From Streptomyces sp. 846.5 (GTDB taxonomy: Bacteria; Actinomycetota; Actinomycetes; Streptomycetales; Streptomycetaceae): 64,000 nucleotides of DNA. The DNA is taken from assembly GCF_004365705.1 (NCBI RefSeq), contig NZ_SOBN01000001.1, positions 2,124,555-2,188,554 on the forward strand, in the 5' to 3' direction. This document shows, piece after piece, positions 41,810-53,985 of this stretch. How positions within the stretch are numbered: the stretch's first letter is position 1; each line of letters begins with the position of its first letter. The notes under the pieces were generated by a model, which did not search any database, had not been told where the DNA came from, and was given only the letters and a program-made list of their open reading frames with translations. A program made the translations under genes and the position numbers.

Positions 41810-41932
41810 GGTTGTACTCCTCAAGCTCACTGTCAGTACCTGCTTACGTAGAAAGACAACCATTGCGCGGGCCGCCGTCCAAACCGGGGCGGCCCGTTAT
41901 CGGTGGCCGGCCGTCCTGCGATGATGTCCGCC

Positions 41933-43291
41933 ATGACGACCACCTGGGACGCGGCCGCTTTTGACGCCTTCGAACGGTCGGGCTGGGCGGGGCGCGGCGC
42001 GGCATACGGCGGCGGCTTCGCACGTCTGACCGCCCACACCGTCGATCCGCTGCTGGACGCGGCGGGTGTGACATCCGGCACCGAGGTGCTGGACGTCGGC
42101 ACCGGGCCCGGTATCGTCGCGGCGGCGGCGCTGGCACGCGGCGCGGTCATCACGGCGGTGGACGCCTCCCCGGAGATGGTCGCACTGGCGGCGGCTGCCT
42201 GCCCGGGCGCGGAGGTGCGTCCCGCCGTCCTCCCCGAACTCCCCTTCCCCGACGGTTCGTTCGACGCCGTGGTGGGCAACTTCGTGATCAACCACCTGGG
42301 CGACGCGGCGGCCGGACTGACCGAGCTGCACCGGGTGCTTCGACCCGGCGGCCGGACCGCGCTGACCTGCTGGGAGAAGGAGGCGATGCGCGCCACCGCG
42401 GTCTTCGGCGAGGCCGTCGCCGCCGTGGGCATCCCCCAGCAGGCCGACCTGCCGTCGTCGGGACCCTTCCTCGCGGGGGCCACCGACCGTGCCGCCGCAT
42501 TCGGTGCGTTGCTCGCCGACGCGGGATTCACCGACGAGTCGGCCCGGCGCCTGCGCTGGACCCACTCGGTGGACCGGGACGACTGGTGGCGCGCGGTCGT
42601 CGGCGGCACCCCGCTGACCGGCTCACTCATCGCCCGCCAGCCGGGCGAGGTGGTCGCCGAGATCAAGCACCGCTACGACGCCCTGGTCGCACCGTACGCG
42701 GAGGGGGTGTCGGGCCTGGTCGGGCTGCCCGCCGTCGCGATACTCGGTGCAGGACGCAAGGGGGTGGGCCAACCGCTGGGCACCGACGAGATCCTCGACA
42801 TCGTCGACGCCGAGGACAACGTGATCGGCCAGGCCCCGCGCGGCGAGGCCACCGCGAAACGGCTGCGCCACCGCTGCGTCTTCATCCTCGCCCGGGACGC
42901 CGACGACCGGATCTTCGTGCACCGCCGCACGGCGGAGAAGCTGGTCTTCCCGTCGATGCACGACATGTTCGTGGGGGGCGTGGTCGGCGCCGGCGAGAGC
43001 TACGACGAGGCGGCGAAGCGCGAGGCCGAGGAGGAACTGGGCGTCGCAGGCCTCTCCCCCGTCCCGCTGTTCCGCTTCCTCTACGAGTCCCCGGAACACA
43101 CCTGGTGGTCCGCCGTCTACGAGACCAGGACCCCGACGACGGTCGCCCCCCAACCCGAGGAGGTCGCCTGGCACGCCTTCCTGACGGAGGCCGAACTCGC
43201 CGCCCGCCTCAGCGAATGGAAGTGGGTCCCGGACGGCCTTGACGCCTGGCGCCGGCTGGCCGCCTGGCGCAACGGAAGGTCCGCCGGCTGA
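41933..43291 (+). CDS. Class I methyltransferase fused to a NUDIX hydrolase
   Basis: A 452-residue fusion. Residues 1-265 form a SAM-dependent methyltransferase (motif I VLDVGTGPGI, ITAVDASPEM, FDAVVGNFVINHL, closing strands AVAILGAGRKG). Residues 275-450 form a NUDIX hydrolase of the IPP-isomerase-like or MutT-like group, beginning EILDIVDAEDNVIG with the Nudix box GVVGAGESYDEAAKREAEEELG. Each domain seems complete and they are joined by only about six residues (VGQPLG). There is no stop and no clear internal ribosome site. The ATG at 41933 precedes the first methyltransferase helix; upstream in-frame starts add up to 10 residues. Confidence 0.8.
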   Translation: MTTTWDAAAFDAFERSGWAGRGAAYGGGFARLTAHTVDPLLDAAGVTSGTEVLDVGTGPGIVAAAALARGAVITAVDASPEMVALAAAACPGAEVRPAVLPELPFPDGSFDAVVGNFVINHLGDAAAGLTELHRVLRPGGRTALTCWEKEAMRATAVFGEAVAAVGIPQQADLPSSGPFLAGATDRAAAFGALLADAGFTDESARRLRWTHSVDRDDWWRAVVGGTPLTGSLIARQPGEVVAEIKHRYDALVAPYAEGVSGLVGLPAVAILGAGRKGVGQPLGTDEILDIVDAEDNVIGQAPRGEATAKRLRHRCVFILARDADDRIFVHRRTAEKLVFPSMHDMFVGGVVGAGESYDEAAKREAEEELGVAGLSPVPLFRFLYESPEHTWWSAVYETRTPTTVAPQPEEVAWHAFLTEAELAARLSEWKWVPDGLDAWRRLAAWRNGRSAG

Positions 43292-43548
43292 GACGGCGAA
43301 GCTGGGATATTCCTCTTCCTACTTCCGGGTAGCCCGGCTACAGTGTCCGCACCACCCCAGTCCGCGTCGGGAGCCGCAGCGACGGGTTGGTTGTTTCTGG
43401 CATGCCGTCACATCTATGGATCCGGCAGTGCCTCTTCTCACGGTGACCTCAGTCGCGCCGTGCACCAGCACCACTCCCCCCTCATCATTTGTTGCGAGGC
43501 CGTCCGAGCGGGACGGCGGGCGCAGCGCTCCCCGAGGAGTACCCAGCC

Positions 43549-45375
43549 ATGACCCTGACTGAGCCCACCCCTGAGCACACCCCCGGGCCCGCCCCCGAGC
43601 TGGACGTCTTCCCCGTCGTCGCCGTCGTCGGGCTCGGCACCATGGGGGCCGGAATCGCCGAGATCGCCGCGCGCAGCGGGCGCAGGGTGATCGGCGTCGA
43701 GCTGGACGCCGCCGCTGCCGGAGCCGCGCTGCGGCGGATCGAGGAGTCGACGGCGCACTCCGTGGAACGCGGGCGGATGACCGCCGGCGAGCGTGCCGAG
43801 CTGCTCGGACGGATCAGCGTCGGGCACGACCTCAACGCCGCGGCCGAGGCGCAGCTGGTGATCGAGGAGATCCCCGAGCAGCTGGAGGCGAAGCGCGAGC
43901 TGTTCGCCGAGCTGGACCGGATCTGCCCGGCCGGGACGGTCCTCGCGACCGGCACCACCGCGCTGTCGGTGACCCGGATCGCCGCGGCCACCCAGCGTCC
44001 CGAACGGGTGATCGGGCTGCACTTCTTCAACCCGGCCCCGGTGATGCAGCTGGTCGAGGTCGTCCGCACGGTGCTGACCAGCGCCGATGTGGCCGAGGCG
44101 GCTGCCGCTTTCGCCCGGGGCCTGGGCAAGTCCCCGGTCGCCGCGGGCGACCGTCCTGGCTTCATCGTCAACGGTCTGCTGTTCGCCTACCTCAACCAGG
44201 CCGCCGCGATGTTCGAGTCGCGCTATGCCACCCGGGAGGACATCGACGCGGCCATGCGGCTGGGCTGCGGGCTGCCGATGGGGCCGCTGGCACTGCTCGA
44301 CCTGATCGGGGTCGACGTGGCCAAGACCGTGCTGGAGGCGATGTACGCGCAGTCGCACGACCGGCTGCACGCCCCCGCTCCGGTGCTGGGTCAGCTGGTG
44401 GCGGCCGGGCTGCTGGGGCGGAAGTCCGGGCGCGGCTTCTACACCTACGCCGCGCCGGGCTCGTCCCAGCCGGTGGCCGAGCCGGATGCGCACGGCGACG
44501 GCGTTGCGGTGGCCGGACGGCAGGTCCGCAGCGTCGGCGTCTGCGGGTCGGGGACGATGGCGACCGGGATCGCGGAGGTGTTCGCCAAGGCCGGCTACGA
44601 CGTCACCCTGGTCGCCCGCAGCCAGGAGAAGGCGGACCGGGCCAAGGCCGGGCTGGCGAAGTCGCTGGAGCGGATGGTGGCCAAGGGACGCCTCGCCGAG
44701 GCCGACCGGGACGCGGCGCTGGCGCGGGTCACCGCCTCGGGTTCGCTGGAGGACCTGGCCACCGCCGATCTGGTGCTGGAGGCCGTCGCCGAGGACCTGG
44801 CGGTGAAGCAGGAGCTGTTCGCCACCCTGGACAAGATCTGCAGGCCCGGCGCGGTGCTGGCGACCACCACGTCCAGCCTGCCGGTGATCCAGTGCGCGAT
44901 GGCGACCGGACGCCCGCAGGACGTGGTGGGGATGCACTTCTTCAACCCGGCCCCGGCGATGCGCCTGGTCGAGGTGGTCAGCACGGTGCTGACCGGGCCC
45001 GATGTCACCGCCACGGTGCTGGAGCTGTGCACCGCGGTGCGCAAGCACCCGGTGGAGTGCGGCGACCGGGCCGGCTTCATCGTCAACGCCCTGCTGTTCC
45101 CCTACCTCAACGACGCGGTGCGGATGATCGAGGAGCACTACGCCTCGGTCGACGACGTCGACACCGCGATGCAGCTGGGCTGCGGCTACCCGATGGGCCC
45201 GTTCGCGCTGCTGGACGTGGTCGGCCTCGATGTCTCGCTGACGATCGAGAAGGTGCTGCACGGCGAGTTCCGCGAGCCCGGACTGGCTCCGGCGCCGCTG
45301 CTGGAGCATCTGGTGGCGGCCGGATGCCTGGGCCGCAAGACCGGGCGTGGCTTCCGCGACCACGCGCGCCGGTGA
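43549..45375 (+). CDS. Two-domain 3-hydroxyacyl-CoA (3-hydroxybutyryl-CoA) dehydrogenase
   Basis: A 608-residue protein made of two complete 3-hydroxyacyl-CoA dehydrogenases in tandem. Each has a Rossmann motif (GLGTMGAGIAE near residue 28; GSGTMATGIAE near 330), the catalytic histidine and glutamate in LHFFNPAPVMQLVEVV / MHFFNPAPAMRLVEVV, and the dimer domain ending LLGRKSGRGFYTY / LGRKTGRGFRDH. The head-to-tail duplication may replace the usual homodimer. It probably interconverts acetoacetyl-CoA and 3-hydroxybutyryl-CoA and so feeds crotonyl-CoA to the pathway downstream. CGAGGAG precedes the ATG. Confidence 0.9.
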   Translation: MTLTEPTPEHTPGPAPELDVFPVVAVVGLGTMGAGIAEIAARSGRRVIGVELDAAAAGAALRRIEESTAHSVERGRMTAGERAELLGRISVGHDLNAAAEAQLVIEEIPEQLEAKRELFAELDRICPAGTVLATGTTALSVTRIAAATQRPERVIGLHFFNPAPVMQLVEVVRTVLTSADVAEAAAAFARGLGKSPVAAGDRPGFIVNGLLFAYLNQAAAMFESRYATREDIDAAMRLGCGLPMGPLALLDLIGVDVAKTVLEAMYAQSHDRLHAPAPVLGQLVAAGLLGRKSGRGFYTYAAPGSSQPVAEPDAHGDGVAVAGRQVRSVGVCGSGTMATGIAEVFAKAGYDVTLVARSQEKADRAKAGLAKSLERMVAKGRLAEADRDAALARVTASGSLEDLATADLVLEAVAEDLAVKQELFATLDKICRPGAVLATTTSSLPVIQCAMATGRPQDVVGMHFFNPAPAMRLVEVVSTVLTGPDVTATVLELCTAVRKHPVECGDRAGFIVNALLFPYLNDAVRMIEEHYASVDDVDTAMQLGCGYPMGPFALLDVVGLDVSLTIEKVLHGEFREPGLAPAPLLEHLVAAGCLGRKTGRGFRDHARR

Positions 45376-45452
45376 CGGCGCCGCTGCGGGCGCGCACGGC
45401 CGGGCCGCCGAGGGTGCCCGTACGGGCAGGGGTGGCGTGTAGCGTTCCGGTC

Positions 45453-46316
45453 ATGAGCGGGGCAGAGAACGGCGGGACGGTAACGGCGGTCGACCAGGCC
45501 AACGGCGCTCCGCGCCGGGTGACGGCACAGCGGCAGCAGATGCGCCAGGACCTGGCGGCGGCGGCCATGGAGCTGTTCGCCAACCAGGGCTACGAGGAGA
45601 CGACGGTCGATCAGATCGCCGCAGCGGCCGGCGTGGCCAGGCGCACCTTCTTCCGCTATTTCCGGTCCAAGGAGGAGGCGATCTTCCCGGACCACGACGA
45701 CACCCTGGTCCGGGTCGCCGACCTGCTGGCCGGCGCCGATCCGGCGGAGCATCCGCTGGACGTGGTCTGCCGGGGCATCAAGGAGGTGCTGCGGATGTAC
45801 GCGGCGACGCCTGGAGTCTCGGTGGCCCGGTACCGGCTGATCCGGCAGGTGCCGACCCTGCGCGAGCGGGAGATCGCGGTGGTGGCCCGGTACGAGCGGC
45901 TGTTCACCCGGTATCTGCTGGGGCGCTTCGACACCGCGGGGCAGGCCTCCGGGGGCTGGGAGCGGGGCGTCGGCGACGACGCGATGCTGGCCGAGGTGTC
46001 GGCGGCGGCCGTGGTCGCGGCGCACAACCATGTGCTGCGGCGCTGGCTGCGTTCCGGCGGCCGGGGCGAGGTCGAGCCGCAGCTGGACCACGCCTTCGAG
46101 GTGATCCGACGGACCTTCTGGGGGAACGCACCCTCGGCCGGGGCATCCCAGGTGGCACCCAGTGCCACCAACGGCGTCGCGGCGACGTTGAGCAGCGCGG
46201 TGGAGAGTGCGGTGGGTGCCACCCCTTCGGGCGAGGTGCTGATCACCGTGGCCCGTACGGACGCCCCGTTGGACGAGGTGCTGCAGAGCATCCGCGCCGC
46301 GCTCGGGGCCAAGTAG
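45453..46316 (+). CDS. TetR-family transcriptional regulator
   Basis: A 287-residue regulator with a TetR DNA-binding domain at residues 23-73 (AAAAMELFANQGYEETTVDQIAAAAGVARRTFFRYFRSKEEAIFP) and a long ligand-binding part. The last 60 residues are unusual for the family and contain TNGVAATLSSAVES and ITVARTDAPLDEVLQSI. It lies between the hydroxyacyl-CoA dehydrogenase and ccr genes, all read rightward. A TetR-type activator (CcrR) regulates ccr in Methylobacterium, which supports the same role here, though orthology was not tested. A palindrome matching the ccr promoter motifs lies inside its own coding region at 46151. Confidence 0.87.
   Translation: MSGAENGGTVTAVDQANGAPRRVTAQRQQMRQDLAAAAMELFANQGYEETTVDQIAAAAGVARRTFFRYFRSKEEAIFPDHDDTLVRVADLLAGADPAEHPLDVVCRGIKEVLRMYAATPGVSVARYRLIRQVPTLREREIAVVARYERLFTRYLLGRFDTAGQASGGWERGVGDDAMLAEVSAAAVVAAHNHVLRRWLRSGGRGEVEPQLDHAFEVIRRTFWGNAPSAGASQVAPSATNGVAATLSSAVESAVGATPSGEVLITVARTDAPLDEVLQSIRAALGAK
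46151..46169. promoter_or_regulatory. Intragenic TetR-type operator candidate
   Basis: GGTGGCAC-CCA-GTGCCACC is a perfect 8-bp inverted repeat with a 3-base centre, inside the 3' part of the TetR gene. The same half-site and spacing recur at the ccr promoter. Confidence 0.5.
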
Positions 46317-46344
46317 GGGACGTAACCGCAGGTCAGAGCAGAAT

Positions 46345-46381
46345 CGTCAGGCCCCTCCCGGCGCGCCGGAGGGGCCTGACG
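46345..46381 (+). terminator. Terminator after the TetR gene
   Basis: A 14-bp perfect stem (46345-46358 with 46368-46381) with a 9-base GC loop lies 28 bases past the stop. It should separate the TetR transcript from ccr. Confidence 0.75.
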
Positions 46382-46403
46382 CATGCCCTGGGGTATGTGT
46401 TGC

Positions 46404-46423
46404 CACGTGATGACGCTCACGTG
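46404..46423. promoter_or_regulatory. CACGTGA inverted repeat upstream of ccr
   Basis: CACGTGA (46404-46410) and TCACGTG (46417-46423) flank 6 bases. It differs from the GTGGCAC motif, so a second regulator may bind here. Confidence 0.35.
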
Positions 46424-46438
46424 TCCTGAGTCCATATT

Positions 46439-46484
46439 GGTGGCACGCAGTGTCTTTACGGGTGGCACAGGGTGCCAGTACCTT
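46439..46484 (+). promoter_or_regulatory. ccr promoter with two GGTGGCAC operator copies
   Basis: TTTACG (46455-46460) and TACCTT (46479-46484) are separated by 18 bases, fitting a vegetative promoter. Site 2, GGTGGCAC-AGG-GTGCCA at 46461-46477, fills the spacer. Site 1, GGTGGCAC-GCA-GTGTC at 46439-46454, ends at the -35 box. The two start 22 bp apart, about two helical turns. A leader of about 215 bases to the ccr ATG would follow. Confidence 0.6.
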
Positions 46485-46706
46485 GTTACTCACTGGTCGC
46501 GGCGCCGCGGCTCCCCACCCTGGCGCGCCATGCCCAGGGCCCGTGCGACACCCCTGCACGGGCGGTCGGCAGCAGCCCCACCACCACGCGACTGAAGCGC
46601 AGCCCAGCAAGGCCCAGCACCAAGCCCCTCATCACCGGTGTCCGTTCCCGGTACCCCCAACAGACGTCCCCGCACCCCTCAAGCGGGGAAGCCGCCGGAG
46701 GCAACC

Positions 46707-48059
46707 ATGAAGGCCCCAGCCATGAAAAGCATCCTCGAAGCGATCACCAGCGAGGACGCGAGCCCGGCCGATTTCGCCGCACTCGACGTCCCCGAGTCCT
46801 ACCGGGCGGTCACGCTCCACAAGGACGAGGAGCAGATGTTCGCCGGCCAGGACAGCCGTGACAAGGATCCCCGCAAGTCGCTGCACGTCGAGGAGATCGC
46901 CGTGCCGGAACTCGGCCCGGGCGAGGCCCTGGTCGCAGTGATGGCCAGCGCGGTGAACTACAACACCGTGTGGAGCTCGATCTTCGAGCCGGTCTCCACC
47001 TTCTCCTTCCTGGAGCGCTACGGGAAGCTCTCGCCGGAGACCTCGCGCCACAACCTGCCCTACCACGTGGTGGGTTCGGACCTCGCGGGCGTGGTGCTGC
47101 GCACCGGCCCCGGGGTGCACGCCTGGAAGCCCGGCGACGAGGTGGTCGCGCACTGCCTGAGCGTCGAACTGGAGAGCGCGGACGGCCACAACGACACCAT
47201 GCTCGACCCGGAGCAGCGGATCTGGGGCTTCGAGACCAACTTCGGCGGCCTGGCCGAGATCGCCCTGGTGAAGTCCAACCAGCTGATGCCCAAGCCGGCC
47301 CACCTCACCTGGGAGGAGGCCGCCTCCCCCGGGCTGGTGAACTCCACCGCCTACCGGCAGCTGGTCTCCCGCAACGGCGCCGGTATGAAGCAGGGCGACA
47401 ACGTGCTGATCTGGGGCGCCAGCGGAGGCCTCGGCTCCTACGCCACCCAGTACGCGCTGGCCGGCGGTGCGACGCCGATCTGCGTGGTCTCCAACGACGC
47501 CAAGGCCGACATCTGCCGTGCGATGGGCGCCGAGGCGATCATCGACCGCAGCGCCGAGGGCTACCGGTTCTGGAAGGACGAGCACAACCAGGACCCGAAG
47601 GAGTGGAAGCGGCTGGGCGGGAGGATCCGCGAGCTGACGGGCGGCGAGGACGTCGACATCGTCTTCGAGCACCCGGGCCGGGAGACCTTCGGCGCCAGTG
47701 TCTATGTGACGCGGAAGGGCGGCACCATCGTCACCTGTGCGTCGACAAGTGGCTATATGCACCAGTACGACAACCGCTACCTCTGGATGTCGCTGAAGCG
47801 CATCGTCGGCTCGCACTTCGCCAACTACCGCGAGGCGTGGGAGGCGAACCGGCTGATCGCCAAGGGGAAGATCCACCCGACCCTGTCGAAGACGTACACC
47901 CTGGAGGAGACCGGCCAGGCGGCGCTGGACGTCCACCACAACCGGCACCAGGGCAAGGTCGGCGTGCTCTGCCTCTCCCCGCGCGAGGGCCTGGGCGTCC
48001 GCGACGAGGAGCTGCGGGACAAGCACCTGTCCGCCATCAACCGCTTCAGGGGTGAATAG
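46707..48059 (+). CDS. ccr: Crotonyl-CoA carboxylase/reductase
   Basis: A 450-residue medium-chain reductase that reduces crotonyl-CoA with NADPH and carboxylates it to (2S)-ethylmalonyl-CoA. Family segments include VMASAVNYNTVWSSIFEPVSTFSFLERYGK, HVVGSDLAGVVLRTG, IWGASGGLGSYATQYALAGGATPICVVSN, VFEHPGRETFGASV and the CO2-pocket region around VNSTAYRQL. The ATG at 46707 has GCCGGAGG upstream and gives the normal length. Besides the ethylmalonyl-CoA pathway, Ccr supplies ethylmalonyl-CoA extender units to polyketide synthases in streptomycetes. Confidence 0.95.
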   Translation: MKAPAMKSILEAITSEDASPADFAALDVPESYRAVTLHKDEEQMFAGQDSRDKDPRKSLHVEEIAVPELGPGEALVAVMASAVNYNTVWSSIFEPVSTFSFLERYGKLSPETSRHNLPYHVVGSDLAGVVLRTGPGVHAWKPGDEVVAHCLSVELESADGHNDTMLDPEQRIWGFETNFGGLAEIALVKSNQLMPKPAHLTWEEAASPGLVNSTAYRQLVSRNGAGMKQGDNVLIWGASGGLGSYATQYALAGGATPICVVSNDAKADICRAMGAEAIIDRSAEGYRFWKDEHNQDPKEWKRLGGRIRELTGGEDVDIVFEHPGRETFGASVYVTRKGGTIVTCASTSGYMHQYDNRYLWMSLKRIVGSHFANYREAWEANRLIAKGKIHPTLSKTYTLEETGQAALDVHHNRHQGKVGVLCLSPREGLGVRDEELRDKHLSAINRFRGE

Positions 48060-48062
48060 CGG

Positions 48063-50093
48063 ATGACCCAGCGAGACCGCCCCTGGCTGATGCGGACCTA
48101 TGCGGGGCACTCCTCCGCCACCGCGTCGAACGAGTTGTACCGCAAGAACCTGGCGAAGGGTCAGACCGGCCTTTCCGTCGCCTTCGACCTGCCCACCCAG
48201 ACCGGTTACGACCCCGACCACGTCCTGGCCAAGGGCGAGGTCGGCCGGGTCGGCGTGCCGGTGGGCCATGTCGGCGACATGCGGGCGCTGTTCGACGGCA
48301 TCCCGCTGGAGCGCACCAACACCTCCATGACGATCAACGCCACCGCCATGTGGCTGCTGGCGATGTACCAGGTCGTCGCGGAGGAGCAGGGCGCGGACAT
48401 CGCCAAGCTCACCGGCACCACCCAGAACGACATCATCAAGGAGTACCTGTCGCGCGGGACGCATGTCTTCCCGCCCGGTCCCAGCATCCGGCTGACCACC
48501 GACATGATCGCCTACACCGTGGCGAACATCCCCAAGTGGAACCCGATCAACATCTGCAGCTACCACCTCCAGGAGGCCGGGGCCACCCCGGTCCAGGAGC
48601 TGGCGTTCGCGATGTGCACCGCCATCGCGGTGCTGGACGCGGTGCGGGACCGCGGTCAGGTCGCGCCCGAGCAGATGGGCGAGGTGGTCGCCCGGATCTC
48701 CTTCTTCGTCAACGCGGGCGTCCGCTTCGTCGAGGAGATGTGCAAGCTCCGTGCCTTCGGCCGGATCTGGGACACCGTCACCCGCGAGCGCTACGGCATC
48801 CAGGACGCCAAGCAGCGGCGCTTCCGGTACGGGGTCCAGGTCAACTCCCTGGGCCTGACGGAGGCCCAGCCGGAGAACAACGTCCAGCGGATCGTGCTGG
48901 AGATGCTGGCCGTGACGCTGTCCAAGGACGCCCGCGCCCGCGCCGTCCAGCTCCCGGCCTGGAACGAGGCGCTGGGCCTGCCCCGACCCTGGGACCAGCA
49001 GTGGTCGCTGCGGATCCAGCAGGTGCTGGCGTACGAGTCGGACCTGCTGGAGTACGGCGACCTGTTCGAGGGCAGCCGGGTCGTCGAGGCCAAGGTGCAG
49101 GAGCTGGTCGAGGGCGCGACCGCCGAGATCGACAAGGTGCTGGCCATGGGCGGGGTCACCCCCGCCGTGGAGTCCGGCTACCTCAAGGCGGCGCTGGTCG
49201 GCTCGCACGCCGAGCGCAGGGCCCGGATCGAGTCCGGCGAGGACAAGGTCGTCGGGGTCAACTGCTTCGAGACCACCGAGCCCAGCCCGCTCACCGCCGA
49301 TCTCGACACCGCGATCATGCAGGTCGATCCCGACGCGGAGCGGGCCGTGGTGGAGGCCTTCGCCCAGTGGCGCAAGGAGCGCGACGAGGACGCCGCGGTG
49401 GCCGCCCTGGCCGAGCTCAAGCGCCAGGCCGCCACCGACGCCAACCTGATGCCGGCCACCCTCGCGTGCGTCCGGGCCGGGGTGACCACCGGGGAGTGGG
49501 CCTTCGCGCTGCGCGAGGTCTTCGGCGAGTACCGCGCCCCCACCGGCGTCGGCGGCGCGCCGATCACCGGCCCGGTCGAGGGCGGGAGCGGCGCCGAGCT
49601 GCTGGCCGTCCGCGAGGCCGTCCGCATCACCGCCGAGGAGATCGGCGCGGGGCGGCTGCGGCTGCTGGTGGGCAAGCCGGGCCTGGACGGGCACTCCAAC
49701 GGCGCCGAGCAGATCGCGGTACGGGCACGGGACGCCGGGTTCGAGGTGGTCTACCAGGGCATCAGGCTGACGCCCGAGCAGATCACCTCGGCGGCGGTCG
49801 CCGAGGACGTCCACTGCGTCGGCCTGTCCATCCTCTCCGGCGCGCACGCCGAGCTCGTCCCCGACGTACTGCGGCGGCTGCGGCGGGCCGGGGTGGAGGA
49901 CGTGCCGGTGATCGTCGGCGGGATCATCCCGGCGGCGGACGAACAGGACCTGCTGGCGCAGGGCGTCGCCGCCGTCTTCACCCCCAAGGACTTCGGTATC
50001 ACCCACATCATCGGCCGTATTGTCGACGAGATCCGTCGCGCACACGGACTTCCCCCGTTCTCGGACCTCAAGGAAGAGACCCTCACCGCATGA
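48063..50093 (+). CDS. ecm: Ethylmalonyl-CoA mutase (MeaA-type, coenzyme B12-dependent)
   Basis: A 676-residue acyl-CoA mutase. The substrate barrel starts WLMRTYAGHSSATASNELY and includes VAFDLPTQTGYDPDH. The C-terminal cobalamin domain (about 535-660) has the base-off motif GLDGHSNGAEQ, with the lower-ligand histidine. It converts ethylmalonyl-CoA to methylsuccinyl-CoA. It starts 3 bases after ccr and overlaps the next gene by 4 bases. The older name MeaA refers to the same enzyme. Confidence 0.95.
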   Translation: MTQRDRPWLMRTYAGHSSATASNELYRKNLAKGQTGLSVAFDLPTQTGYDPDHVLAKGEVGRVGVPVGHVGDMRALFDGIPLERTNTSMTINATAMWLLAMYQVVAEEQGADIAKLTGTTQNDIIKEYLSRGTHVFPPGPSIRLTTDMIAYTVANIPKWNPINICSYHLQEAGATPVQELAFAMCTAIAVLDAVRDRGQVAPEQMGEVVARISFFVNAGVRFVEEMCKLRAFGRIWDTVTRERYGIQDAKQRRFRYGVQVNSLGLTEAQPENNVQRIVLEMLAVTLSKDARARAVQLPAWNEALGLPRPWDQQWSLRIQQVLAYESDLLEYGDLFEGSRVVEAKVQELVEGATAEIDKVLAMGGVTPAVESGYLKAALVGSHAERRARIESGEDKVVGVNCFETTEPSPLTADLDTAIMQVDPDAERAVVEAFAQWRKERDEDAAVAALAELKRQAATDANLMPATLACVRAGVTTGEWAFALREVFGEYRAPTGVGGAPITGPVEGGSGAELLAVREAVRITAEEIGAGRLRLLVGKPGLDGHSNGAEQIAVRARDAGFEVVYQGIRLTPEQITSAAVAEDVHCVGLSILSGAHAELVPDVLRRLRRAGVEDVPVIVGGIIPAADEQDLLAQGVAAVFTPKDFGITHIIGRIVDEIRRAHGLPPFSDLKEETLTA

Positions 50094-51049
50094 CCGTGAA
50101 TCGCCTCCGCCCCCGCCGCTCCTGCCTCGCCGTCCCGGGCAGCAACCCGCGCTTCCTGGAGAAGGCCCAGGGCCTGCCCGCCGACCAGGTCTTCCTGGAC
50201 CTGGAGGACGCCTGCGCGCCGCTGGCCAAGGAGGGCGCCCGCCACACCATCGTGGACGCGCTGAACCAGGGCGACTGGACCGGGAAGACCCGGGTGGTCC
50301 GGGTCAACGACTGGACCACCCACTGGACCTACCGCGACGTGGTGACCGTCGTCGAGGGCGCCGGCCAGAACCTGGACTGCATCATGCTGCCCAAGGTCCA
50401 GGACGCCCAGCAGGTGGTCGCGCTGGACCTGCTGCTCACCCAGATCGAGAAGACCATGGGCTTCGAGGTCGGGAAGATCGGCATCGAGGCGCAGATCGAG
50501 AACGCCAAGGGCCTGATCAACGTGGACGCCATCGCGGAGGCCTCGCCCCGGCTGGAGACCATCATCTTCGGCCCGGCCGACTTCATGGCCTCCATCAACA
50601 TGAAGTCCCTGGTCGTCGGCGAGCAGCCGCCCGGCTACAGCGCGGACGCCTACCACTACATCCTCATGCGCATCCTGATGGCCGCCCGTGCCAACGACCT
50701 GCAGGCCATCGACGGCCCCTACCTGCAGATCCGCAACGTGGACGGCTATCGCGAGGTCGCCGGGCGCGCGGCCGCGCTGGGCTACGACGGCAAGTGGGTG
50801 CTGCACCCCGGCCAGGTGGACGCCGCCAACGAGGTGTTCTCGCCGAGCCAGGAGGACTACGACCACGCCGAGCTGATCCTGGACGCCTACGACTGGTGCA
50901 CGTCCGAGGCCGGCGGCAAGAAGGGCTCGGCGATGCTCGGCGACGAGATGATCGACGAGGCCAGCCGGAAGATGGCGCTGGTCATCTCCGGGAAGGGGCG
51001 GGCCGCGGGGATGCAGCGGACCACCAAGTTCGAGATTCCGGAGGCGTAG
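50090..51049 (+). CDS. mcl: L-malyl-CoA/beta-methylmalyl-CoA lyase (HpcH/CitE family)
   Basis: A 319-residue CitE-like lyase: RRSCLAVPGSNPRFLEKA, the metal-binding DLEDACAP (Asp/Glu), RVNDWTTHWTYRD, EAQIENAKGLIN and GKWVLHPGQVDAANEVFSP. Within this operon it should split beta-methylmalyl-CoA to glyoxylate and propionyl-CoA (Mcl1 activity). The start codon overlaps the ecm stop (ATGA). Confidence 0.9.
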   Translation: MTVNRLRPRRSCLAVPGSNPRFLEKAQGLPADQVFLDLEDACAPLAKEGARHTIVDALNQGDWTGKTRVVRVNDWTTHWTYRDVVTVVEGAGQNLDCIMLPKVQDAQQVVALDLLLTQIEKTMGFEVGKIGIEAQIENAKGLINVDAIAEASPRLETIIFGPADFMASINMKSLVVGEQPPGYSADAYHYILMRILMAARANDLQAIDGPYLQIRNVDGYREVAGRAAALGYDGKWVLHPGQVDAANEVFSPSQEDYDHAELILDAYDWCTSEAGGKKGSAMLGDEMIDEASRKMALVISGKGRAAGMQRTTKFEIPEA

Positions 51050-51053
51050 GGCC

Positions 51054-51557
51054 ATGCAGTTCGGACGCACCTTTGAGGAGTTCGAGGTCGGCGCGGTCTA
51101 CAAGCACTGGCCCGGGAAGACCGTCACCGAGTACGACGACCATCTCTTCTGCCTGCTGACCATGAACCACCACCCGCTGCACCTGGACAGCAACTACGCC
51201 GAGAAGACCACGGACTTCGGGAAGAACGTGGTGGTCGGCAACTACATCTACTCGCTGCTGCTGGGGATGTCGGTGCCGGACGTCTCCGGCAAGGCGATCG
51301 CCAACCTGGAGGTCGAGTCGCTGAAGCACATCGCGCCGACGTTCCACGGCGACACCATCTACGGCGAGACCGTGGTCCTGGACAAGACGCCGTCGAAGTC
51401 CAAGAGCGACCGGGGGATCGTGTACGTGGAGACCAAGGGGTACAAGCAGGACGGCACGGTCGTCTGTGTCTTCAGACGCAAGGTGATGGTTCCCACCGAG
51501 ACCTATGTCAAGGAGAGGGGCGGGGAGCAGGCGGGACGGCCTGAGCCTCGGTCGTAA
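51054..51557 (+). CDS. mch: Mesaconyl-CoA hydratase (MaoC-family dehydratase)
   Basis: A 167-residue MaoC-type hot-dog fold: GAVYKHWPGKTVTEYDDHLF (catalytic Asp/His region), MNHHPLHLDSNYAEKT and NYIYSLLLGMSVPD. In the ethylmalonyl-CoA pathway it hydrates mesaconyl-C1-CoA to beta-methylmalyl-CoA. It starts 4 bases after mcl. The final 15 residues (KERGGEQAGRPEPRS) are low-complexity and look like read-through into decayed DNA before the dispersed repeat. Confidence 0.88.
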   Translation: MQFGRTFEEFEVGAVYKHWPGKTVTEYDDHLFCLLTMNHHPLHLDSNYAEKTTDFGKNVVVGNYIYSLLLGMSVPDVSGKAIANLEVESLKHIAPTFHGDTIYGETVVLDKTPSKSKSDRGIVYVETKGYKQDGTVVCVFRRKVMVPTETYVKERGGEQAGRPEPRS

Positions 51558-51583
51558 CGGTGCGGACCGTAGCCGGTTGCTGT

Positions 51584-51605
51584 TCGCGCAGTTCCCCGCG
51601 CCCCT
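51584..51605. repeat. Dispersed GCGCAGTTCCCCGCG element between mch and mcd
   Basis: Copy D, lying inside the operon 26 bases past the mch stop. It is a single unpaired copy with no mirror arm, so it should not be a strong terminator; ccr-mch and mcd may still be read together. Confidence 0.8.
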
Positions 51606-51693
51606 AAGAAGTCCCCCACGTACCAGGTGTCCTGCGGCTGCTGCCACAGCCGCGGGGCACCTACCCCCTCAACGTCACTTCAGGAGTCAGCCC

Positions 51694-52905
51694 ATGGGAC
51701 GCCTCGCCCAGACCGAAGGCCTCACCGAGATCCAGCAGGACATCCTCAGCACTGTTCGAAGCTTTGTCGACAAGGAGATCATTCCGGTCGCCACCGAGTT
51801 GGAGCACCGGGACGAGTACCCCGCCGCCATCGTCGAGGGGATGAAGGAGATGGGCCTGTTCGGGCTCATGATCCCGGAGGAGTACGGCGGCCTCGGCGAG
51901 TCGCTGCTGACCTACGCCCTGGTGGTGGAGGAGATCGCGCGCGGCTGGATGTCGGTGTCCGGCATCGTCAACACCCACTTCATCGTGGCGTACATGATCG
52001 CCCAGCACGGGACCCAGGCGCAGAAGGACCACTTCCTGCCGCGGATGGCCACCGGCGAGGTCCGCGGCGCCTTCTCCATGTCGGAGCCCGGGCTGGGGTC
52101 GGACGTCGGGGCGATCCGGACCAAGGGCGTCCGGGACGGCGACGACTACGTCATCAACGGGCAGAAGATGTGGCTGACCAACGGCGGCACCTCCACCCTG
52201 GTCGCGGTGCTCTGCCGGACCGACGAGGGGCACCCCGAGGGCACCGCCCCGCACAAGTCGATGACCACCTTCCTGATCGAGAAGACGCCGGGTTTTGGCC
52301 CCAACGAGACCGTCCCGGGGCTCACCATCCCCGGCAAGATCGAGAAGATGGGCTACAAGGGCGTGGACACCACCGAGATGATCCTGGAGGACGTCCGCAT
52401 CCCGGCGGACATGGTCCTCGGCGGGACCTCGGGCCGCGGCTTCTACCAGATGATGGACGGGGTCGAGGTGGGCCGGGTCAATGTCGCGGCCCGCGGCTGC
52501 GGCGTCGCCCATCGCGCCTTCGAGCTGGGCATCCGCTACGCCCAGCAGCGCAGCACCTTCGGCAAGAAGATCGCCGAGCACCAGGCGATCCAGTTCAAGC
52601 TGTCGGAGATGGCCACCAAGGTCGAGGCCGCCCACCAGATGATGGTGATGGCCGCCCGCAAGAAGGACTCGGGCCAGCGCAACGACCTGGAGGCCGGGAT
52701 GGCGAAGTACCTGGCCTCCGAGTACTGCAAAGAGGTGGTCGAGGACTCCTTCCGGATCCACGGCGGCTACGGCTTCTCCAAGGAGTACGAGATCGAGCGC
52801 CTCTACCGGGAGGCGCCGATGCTGCTCATCGGTGAGGGGACTGCGGAGATCCAGAAAATGATCATCGGTCGCCGGCTGCTGGAGGACTATCGTCTCGGGG
52901 AATGA
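51694..52905 (+). CDS. mcd: (2S)-Methylsuccinyl-CoA dehydrogenase (acyl-CoA dehydrogenase family)
   Basis: A 403-residue flavoprotein: FSMSEPGLGSDVGAIRT and WLTNGGTSTLVAVL in the FAD/substrate region, RSTFGKKIAEHQAIQFKLSEM, and FRIHGGYGFSKEYEIERLYREAPMLLIGEGTAEIQKMIIG at the end. Known methylsuccinyl-CoA dehydrogenases are distinct acyl-CoA dehydrogenases encoded beside ecm and ccr, so context supports this assignment. The name rests on the operon more than on a diagnostic residue. The ATG at 51694 has CAGGAG 8 bases upstream. Confidence 0.87.
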   Translation: MGRLAQTEGLTEIQQDILSTVRSFVDKEIIPVATELEHRDEYPAAIVEGMKEMGLFGLMIPEEYGGLGESLLTYALVVEEIARGWMSVSGIVNTHFIVAYMIAQHGTQAQKDHFLPRMATGEVRGAFSMSEPGLGSDVGAIRTKGVRDGDDYVINGQKMWLTNGGTSTLVAVLCRTDEGHPEGTAPHKSMTTFLIEKTPGFGPNETVPGLTIPGKIEKMGYKGVDTTEMILEDVRIPADMVLGGTSGRGFYQMMDGVEVGRVNVAARGCGVAHRAFELGIRYAQQRSTFGKKIAEHQAIQFKLSEMATKVEAAHQMMVMAARKKDSGQRNDLEAGMAKYLASEYCKEVVEDSFRIHGGYGFSKEYEIERLYREAPMLLIGEGTAEIQKMIIGRRLLEDYRLGE

Positions 52906-52930
52906 GACGCGCCCTGCCGTCAACGGCGAG

Positions 52931-52962
52931 AATCGGCCGGAACCACTGGGTTCCGGCCGATT
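52931..52962 (+). terminator. Terminator after mcd
   Basis: A 14-bp perfect stem (52931-52944 with 52949-52962), 4-base loop, followed by TTCCCC. It closes the ethylmalonyl-CoA transcript. Confidence 0.85.
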
Positions 52963-53331
52963 TCCCCGTTCTGCCTTCCGTACCATGGAGTACGTGCTTC
53001 GGCACCCCGTTCGGCCCCGCGCGCGGGGGTGCTTCGCACGCCCCCTGTTCGCCTCGACAAGCCCCTGACCACTCCTGAGAGAGTTGTCACCGATCCTGTG
53101 AAACGCTTGGCCCCAAGGGGTCGACACCTCTACGTTCGTAGCAGGGGACGAGGCCGTGGAGAGCTTCCCCGCCTCCTGGAGGTTGCCTAGTGACCGTCTG
53201 CTGCCGATAGCATCCACCCCTGGACAGATACGTCCCCGAACCCCTCGATCACGCGGCCCCTCGCGCGGTCACCGTACGCCGGTACCCTCGGCGTCCATAC
53301 CGTTCCCGGGCCCCCGCGACAAAGGTCTTCG
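52963..53331. other. Gene-free stretch upstream of psd
   Basis: About 370 bases with no convincing gene. A GTG-started 31-codon frame at 53098 lacks a good ribosome site. A promoter-like pair, TTGGCC (53107-53112) and TACGTT (53131-53136) with 18 bases between, is the best visible signal; the -10 lies in a small symmetric CTACG-TT-CGTAG. Confidence 0.35.
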
Positions 53332-53985
53332 ATGCCCCTCAGTCCGTCCCCACGATCCGCGAGCCGCCCCCGTGTCACGCTTGCACGCGGCTGCTCGCCC
53401 TGGCTTGCCCCCACGGTCCTCACCGCCGCCGCCTGCACCGCCCTCACCCGGCGCAGCGGCAAGTGGGCCCTGGCGGCAGTACCGGCCTCCGCGCTCAGCG
53501 CGGGGATGCTGTGGTTCTTCCGCGACCCCGAGCGCACCATCGGCCAGGGTCGGGTGATCTCCCCCGCCGACGGTGTGGTGCAGAGCATCGACGCCTGGCC
53601 CGACGGCCGCACCCGGGTCGCGATCTTCATGAGCCCGCTCAATGTGCACGTCAACCGGGCGCCGCTGCCCGGCACGGTCACCTCGGTCGAGCACGTGGCC
53701 GGCGGGTTCGTCCCGGCGTTCAACAAGGACAGCGACCGCAACGAACGGGTCGTGTGGCACTTCGACACCGAGCTCGGCGACATCGAGATGGTCCAGATCG
53801 CCGGGGCCGTCGCCCGCCGGATCATCCCCTACCTGCCCGCCGGGACCAAGGTCGAGCAGGGCGAGCGGATCGGGCTGATCCGCTTCGGCTCGCGGGTCGA
53901 CACCTACCTGCCCGCAGGCGTCGAGCCCGGGGTGCAGGTCGGCCAGAAGACCACGGCTGGGGTGACTCGCCTTGACCGTGACTGA
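53332..53985 (+). CDS. psd: Phosphatidylserine decarboxylase
   Basis: A 217-residue decarboxylase proenzyme that makes phosphatidylethanolamine. It has a membrane-proximal head, then FFRDPERTI, SPADGVVQSI, IFMSPLNVHVNRAPL and the self-cleavage site LIRFGSRVD, where the Ser becomes the pyruvoyl group. This is the short Psd type of actinomycetes. Its 3' end overlaps the pssA start by 14 bases, so the two consecutive steps are coupled. Confidence 0.93.
   Translation: MPLSPSPRSASRPRVTLARGCSPWLAPTVLTAAACTALTRRSGKWALAAVPASALSAGMLWFFRDPERTIGQGRVISPADGVVQSIDAWPDGRTRVAIFMSPLNVHVNRAPLPGTVTSVEHVAGGFVPAFNKDSDRNERVVWHFDTELGDIEMVQIAGAVARRIIPYLPAGTKVEQGERIGLIRFGSRVDTYLPAGVEPGVQVGQKTTAGVTRLDRD

Follow-up and report, generated by a model that had tools for sequence, protein, structure and literature searches.

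The best-described relatives of the system analysed here are regulators of the TetR family. MftR, the mycofactocin TetR repressor of mycobacteria, has an operator that contains TGGCACTCGATGCCA and is released by long-chain acyl-CoAs (PMC8728441). The site of SCO3201, a TetR regulator of Streptomyces coelicolor, is TGGCAGATTCTGCCA (PMC7324645). The paper on CcrR, the TetR-family regulator of ccr in Methylobacterium extorquens, calls it an activator in its title; a CcrR mutant is reported with half of the Ccr activity (cited in PMC4207312; PMC4606968). AccR of Streptomyces avermitilis is a TetR repressor of short-chain acyl-CoA genes, with the operator GTTAA-N6-TTAAC (reviewed in PMC10933834). 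RamB of Paracoccus denitrificans, a ScfR-type regulator that is not related to TetR, coordinates acetyl-CoA assimilation, binds intermediates of the ethylmalonyl-CoA pathway and has two binding boxes upstream of malate synthase (PMC10370305). Lastly, SCO6474 of S. coelicolor, a TetR gene near sco6475 (FadB-like dehydrogenase), receives a passing mention in one paper, which gives neither function nor operator. The open-access papers searched, also under the names SCO6473 and SCO6474, contained no description of the TetR regulator considered here.

As a class, the arrangement that we describe is ordinary: a TetR gene with palindromic operators beside its target. Measured against the open-access papers searched, the new elements are the assignment of the regulator, a tandem operator that is almost universal in the family, and a predicted regulon. 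The ethylmalonyl-CoA pathway is also a source of ethylmalonyl-CoA and similar building blocks of polyketide antibiotics. The exact predicted operators and the list of further targets make control of the pathway directly testable and provide an engineering handle, and a possible role emerges for a conserved TetR gene with one passing mention found in the open-access literature.

The tetR-ccr locus and its regulator

The window, that is, the whole 64-kb stretch of DNA that was analysed, has a Streptacidiphilus-like setting, and the nearest tetR-ccr loci are those of S. carbonis and S. jeojiense, with a TetR identity of 96-97%. The order on the plus strand is two-domain 3-hydroxyacyl-CoA dehydrogenase, tetR, ccr, acyl-CoA mutase, CitE-like lyase, MaoC-type hydratase and acyl-CoA dehydrogenase (Table 1). 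A specific equivalog cutoff was passed by ccr only (TIGR01751), the other operon genes being named by family and position; the segment from ccr to the acyl-CoA dehydrogenase gene is, judged from gene order, an ethylmalonyl-CoA operon. Gene order also indicates that SCO6474 is probably the orthologue of the TetR of this locus. The ATG of ccr at 46707 is preceded by GGAGG, which sets the leader at about 215 nt; no known RNA element was found in it, an Rfam search of 43000-53500 having returned no match. A strong hairpin stands behind tetR and likely marks the end of its transcript, which suggests two separate transcripts, one for tetR and one for ccr; a terminator scan found no intrinsic-terminator pattern at this hairpin. 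Further upstream (41903-43291), a single open frame seems by eye to combine SAM-dependent methyltransferase-like and NUDIX-like parts.

Table 1. Features of the tetR-ccr locus, in window coordinates
Feature	Position	Strand	Remarks
3-Hydroxyacyl-CoA dehydrogenase gene	43489-45375		upstream of tetR; one chain encodes two such units
tetR	45453..46316	+	287-aa MftR-like TetR regulator, recognition helix GVARRTFFRYF; predicted palindrome binder
Intragenic palindrome GGTGGCAC-CCA-GTGCCACC, whole GGTGGCACCCAGTGCCACC	46151-46169	.	linker-coding part of tetR; putative auxiliary operator
G+C-rich hairpin 3' of tetR	46345..46385	+	fold of 46317-46425: -60 kcal/mol, z -4.55; without U-run
Predicted operator site 1, TGGCACGCAGTGTCT	46441..46455	.	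abuts -35; TGRCACNNNGTGYCT in 81/81 sequences including the window
-35-like hexamer TTTACG	46455..46460	+	TTGYCN-type in Streptomyces; 81-promoter alignment
Predicted operator site 2, TGGCACAGGGTGCCA	46463..46477	.	inside 18-bp spacer; kept in 81/81 including the window
-10-like hexamer TACCTT	46479..46484	+	mostly TACSTT across loci; conserved block directly after site 2
ccr, crotonyl-CoA carboxylase/reductase	46707..48059	+	TIGR01751 618 bits, cutoff 378.55
Acyl-CoA mutase (ethylmalonyl-CoA mutase by position)	48063..50093	+	acid_CoA_mut_N 461 bits, acid_CoA_mut_C 132 bits, both above cutoff; next after ccr in operon
CitE-like lyase (malyl-/methylmalyl-CoA lyase by position)	50096..51049	+	citE-type families, below equivalog cutoffs
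MaoC-type hydratase (mesaconyl-CoA hydratase by position)	51054..51557	+	RipB/Ich and 2-methylfumaryl-CoA hydratase families, below cutoffs
Acyl-CoA dehydrogenase (methylsuccinyl-CoA dehydrogenase by position)	51694..52905	+	acyl-CoA dehydrogenase families, below equivalog cutoffs

The N-terminal domain of the TetR exceeds its Pfam cutoff (PF00440 TetR_N, 60.4 bits against 24), and the MftR-type C-terminal domain falls just under its own (PF17754 TetR_C_14, 20.8 bits against 22.7; a paralogue at another locus, L125, passes with 38.7). The best NCBIfam match is MftR itself (TIGR03968), at 97.2 bits and hence far below the equivalog cutoff of 224.9. The AF2 model (pLDDT 64) aligns to TetR structures and has their all-helical fold; its best match is 2rae (Z 17.5, rmsd 4.6 Å over 187 residues), MftR (8x0a) aligns with a Z of 17.0 (3.5 Å, 179 residues), and SCO0337 and SCO3201 are also among the closest. 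The nearest solved relatives of the protein, 2dg7, 2rae, SCO3201 (4cgr, 7pt0) and MftR (8x0a), agree with this fold comparison. The variable linker is followed, at 46236-46313, by a conserved C-terminal tail, GEVLxTVARTDAPLDEV, that lies outside the usual TetR domain.

MftR resembles the TetR of the locus in its C-terminal domain, in a near-identical recognition helix (GIARRTLFRYY in MftR, GVARRTFFRYF here, GVAPRTFYRYF in SCO3201) and, given the role predicted for the latter, in controlling the adjoining gene cluster. Its operator TGGCACTCGATGCCA fits the palindrome described below at 11 of 12 positions. For the form T-N2-GGCA-N5-TGCC-N2-A, the comparison covered the core, GGCA-N5-TGCC, which is present in site 2 and in the copy inside tetR. 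By contrast, MftR has one 27-bp operator in place of a tandem pair, and the target here is the ethylmalonyl-CoA operon; tetR is not at a mycofactocin cluster, its immediate neighbours being the hydroxyacyl-CoA dehydrogenase gene and the ccr operon. The related SCO3201 has a 15-bp palindromic site, TGGCAGATTCTGCCA, with the same outer half-sites, but its inner bases are GATTC instead of CNNNG and its published targets are other genes. CcrR is likened by description, as an analogy, since it too is a TetR-family regulator of ccr; it differs in being described as an activator. AccR was considered as the regulator and rejected, as its operator, GTTAA-N6-TTAAC, differs from the conserved TGRCACNNNGTGYCA and its targets differ as well.

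Other members of the TetR group have palindromes between their own gene and the next one, which encodes an OB-fold protein or an acyl-CoA dehydrogenase, and the group appears to recognise palindromes of the TGRCACNNNGTGYCA class. Because the MftR operator and the SCO3201 site share this 15-bp class with TGRCACNNNGTGYCA, the neighbouring TetR is the likely, predicted binder of the ccr palindromes. Several Streptomyces (L124:5586-6821, L125:5372-6682) have, behind the gene of a paralogous MftR-like TetR, a similar tandem GGGTAC-N3-GTGCC / TGRCAC-N3-GTGCCA and then a gene for a ChsH2-like Zn-ribbon/OB-fold protein, a second, unnamed TetR-operator pair.

Tandem palindromes at the ccr promoter

Read directly, the region of site 1 is GGTGGCACGCAGTGTC (46439-46454) and that of site 2 is GGTGGCACAGGGTGCCA (46461-46477). 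With no mismatch allowed, GGTGGCACN3GTGNC occurs at three places only in the window; these give 4 strand-wise hits, whereas 60 dinucleotide shuffles average 0.05 and never exceed 1. The three palindromes recorded by the sequence-only reading thus exist, far above chance. With two mismatches, 19 occurrences were found in the window and 21 expected, so the information rests in the strict form only; the loose motif (two mismatches in the window, one in the genome) lies at or below control levels and was dropped as evidence. Strict TGRCACNNNGTGYCA occupies five places in the whole 9.0-Mb genome, two of them in the window, and its reversed control one. Elsewhere in this genome (L129:5202-6785), a palindrome TGACACCAAGTGTCA is flanked by a TetR gene on one side and a divergently oriented NAD-dependent epimerase-type gene on the other.

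The spacer between TTTACG and TACCTT is 18 bp long and is occupied by the palindrome copy of site 2, and the two promoter 15-mers begin at 46441 and 46463, 22 bp apart; direct reading bears out the earlier description on both points. Both hexamers were read by eye, and a simple sigma-70 scan did not call a -35/-10 pair at this promoter. Just upstream of site 1, an A/T-rich stretch (46429-46440) is conserved, with a counterpart at this position in L035-L088 (GAGNGAAATT in Streptomyces); it may act as an UP-like element or bind another factor.

Using tblastn, tetR and ccr were placed together in 80 loci of Streptacidiphilus, Kitasatospora and Streptomyces. The sequence-only reading had set, as its own refuting test, a lack of the motif upstream of ccr in relatives; the tandem element is present in 80/80 loci, always with 22 bp from start to start. 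It reads TGRCAC-N3-GTGYC-TT, a six-base gap and TGNCAC-N3-GTGYCA, with one locus in which the second site opens with a different base. Counted from the ccr start of the alignment, it lies about 215-370 bp upstream. CAC and GTG are invariant in both sites in all 81 sequences, the window included; TACSTT stands directly behind the element in most loci, and the -35/-10 spacer measures 18 bp in Streptacidiphilus and Kitasatospora and 17 bp in Streptomyces. In two loci (L063 and L073), about 3 kb separate tetR from ccr, yet the element stays about 260-285 bp from ccr, and it is therefore part of the ccr promoter. A survey of 296 genomes of the class found the element in 26 of the 28 family members, against 1 of 268 others, and the reversed control in none of them. 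The sole outsider (L095/L128) has it beside a different TetR gene: this locus (L128:5283-7120, of another actinomycete family) has in a row the TetR gene, two perfect TGACAC-N3-GTGTCA 22 bp apart and a gene for an acyl-CoA dehydrogenase.

An operator inside the -35/-10 spacer is the classic geometry of a repressor, and a protein bound there normally blocks the polymerase. The sites, their conservation and geometry, their recurrence at further genes and their association with the TetR are observed; from these we infer binding by the TetR, repression and a ligand. The explanation that we favour, and regard as probable, is that the MftR-like TetR binds the tandem TGRCACNNNGTGYCA sites and represses the ccr operon until a CoA thioester releases it, and that it controls further genes of acetyl-CoA assimilation. 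Each of the adjoining TGRCACNNNGTGYCA palindromes would hold one dimer, so that two dimers, separated by two helical turns, cover the -35 hexamer and the spacer; together they would exclude RNA polymerase and keep the ethylmalonyl-CoA operon (ccr, mutase, lyase, hydratase and dehydrogenase) off. The TetR would then be released by a CoA thioester whose level increases during growth on acetate or fatty acids; this signal is proposed because of the kinship to MftR and the nature of the target genes. Repression relieved by a CoA thioester is the best reading of the predicted promoter.

Activation of ccr from the same sites, or a dual role in which the TetR at site 1 contacts RNA polymerase, would be in keeping with the reported activator CcrR of M. 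extorquens, with the position of site 1 against the -35 hexamer and with an AAATT stretch upstream of it that is conserved in Streptomyces. We consider this unlikely, because site 2, in the spacer, is conserved as much as site 1 and because MftR, a relative of known function, acts as a repressor (PMC8728441). An appreciably smaller chance is left to a different physiological binder, another MftR-like TetR or a global regulator, to which the adjoining tetR would be incidental: same-group paralogous TetRs adjoin very similar tandem sites in Streptomyces and could cross-bind, but tetR and the tandem site occur together (80/80 loci; 26/28 in the family and 1/268 outside), the genome of the window has no second TetR at E<1e-25, and the excess of palindromes follows the presence of the TetR (see below).

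These results bear on the earlier proposal that the TetR governs entry into the ethylmalonyl-CoA pathway. Its predicted control of the ccr promoter gains from the 80/80 conservation and from the match to the published operators of the nearest characterised TetR relatives, and repression through site 2 from the geometry of a site that fills the spacer. A separate activation through site 1 gained no support: conservation is equal for site 1, site 2 and the 22-bp spacing between them, as suits a pair of dimers that work jointly.

The palindrome within tetR

In Streptacidiphilus/Kitasatospora-type loci, the palindrome inside tetR is perfect (12/12) in 25 of 26 cases; the tetR genes of Streptomyces do not have it. 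It encodes a linker that varies in length and sequence and is predicted to be disordered, with a pLDDT below 50 in the model (residues 226-269). Nevertheless, the alanine codon within the palindrome is GCA in 26 of 27 sequences, though GCA makes up 5.5% of alanine codons, and all 27 have GGT or AGT, which represent 12% of glycine and 9% of serine codons. Rare codons kept within a variable linker suggest selection on the DNA. Three Streptomyces without the copy in the gene have a palindrome 165 bp upstream of site 1.

Many TetR systems have an operator upstream of their own tetR gene, unlike this one, and autoregulation by that route was rejected. In a check of 79 loci, the regions upstream of tetR and of the dehydrogenase and mutase genes gave no site except a single 11/12 match, at a position that points to a partial alignment. 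Because no operator was found upstream of tetR, the TetR may instead regulate its own gene through the internal site, which would hold down tetR transcription; looping between this site and the promoter sites is possible as well.

The third copy could instead be coding sequence without a regulatory role, which would leave the two promoter copies as the only ones that matter; this concerns that copy alone and does not compete with repression of ccr by the TetR. Its absence from the Streptomyces genes and a distance to the promoter sites that varies from about 230 to 330 bp speak for such a view. The rare codons (GCA 26/27; GGT/AGT 27/27) in a linker whose protein sequence varies, and the palindrome 165 bp upstream of site 1 in the three Streptomyces, speak against it, and we find it rather doubtful.

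A predicted regulon beyond ccr

A predicted regulon beyond ccr goes further than the sequence-only reading. It was examined in a family sample of 41 genomes, 32 of which hold the TetR (at least 64% identity) and 9 of which do not; the genomes are related and not independent, so the p-values given here overstate independence. The strict palindrome and its reversed control number 138 and 39 in the 32 genomes with the TetR, against 17 and 19 in the 9 without (Fisher p 0.0004). When the two ccr-locus sites per genome are removed, the association with the TetR weakens to p 0.08, and the signal beyond ccr therefore rests mainly on specific genes. Sites noticed in a small number of genomes had led to the choice of these genes before the sample was used to test them; discovery and test therefore partly overlap.

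Of the 27 genomes with the TetR that were examined for ppdK (pyruvate phosphate dikinase), 19 have a perfect palindrome 267-333 bp upstream of it; none of the 7 genomes that hold the gene without the TetR has it (Fisher p 0.0012). citA (citrate synthase) has a perfect palindrome upstream in 14 of 29 genomes, mostly with a second, half-conserved site 22 bp upstream of the first, as in the genome of the window (C1:3526840). Upstream of aceB (malate synthase), 16 Streptomyces-side genomes have a near-palindrome at 42-117 bp, and mostly a second site further upstream. A match to icl (isocitrate lyase) was obtained in 5 of 41 genomes; the four with the TetR each have two near-palindromic sites upstream of it, and the one without the TetR has none. 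Membership in the regulon varies by lineage, and among these genes the genome of the window has sites at ccr and citA only. One genome in which no TetR was found (G304, 93% complete) has the palindrome upstream of citA even so.

Taken with the ccr operon, ppdK, citA, aceB and icl form a predicted regulon of acetyl-CoA assimilation and PEP formation with one metabolic logic. Where present, the same TetR would control citrate synthase through a tandem operator of its own, as well as pyruvate phosphate dikinase, malate synthase and isocitrate lyase, and the palindrome pair looks like a switch for the whole acetate-use programme in Streptomyces relatives. The wider proposal, of a Streptomycetaceae master regulator that senses a CoA thioester, couples the ethylmalonyl-CoA operon to citrate synthase, ppdK, malate synthase and, where present, icl by one operator type, and tunes its own expression through the in-gene operator, is put forward tentatively, as slightly more apt to fail than to hold. 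At the threshold used, isocitrate lyase had no match in 36 of 41 Streptomycetaceae genomes, that of the window included; most Streptomycetaceae examined therefore probably depend mainly on the ethylmalonyl-CoA pathway to grow on acetate and fatty acids.

Further genes have sites in fewer genomes. fabG was set aside as a regulon gene and is a possible member at most: a site is present in 4/4 genomes of the genus Streptomyces, and other genera are without it, most having a TTGACAC remnant only. Sites at etfBA, bioB/bioF and the lipA region occur in one or two genomes each. In three Streptacidiphilus loci (L089:4810-4828, L201:5280-5298 and L205:5333-5351), a flotillin-type operon, made up of a membrane protein gene and a flotillin-like gene, has a perfect palindrome upstream of it. 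In several Streptacidiphilus (L191:6403, L194:6275, L195:6044), a palindrome lies between anti-sigma-factor-antagonist-like and sigma-factor-like genes, about 25 kb from citrate synthase.
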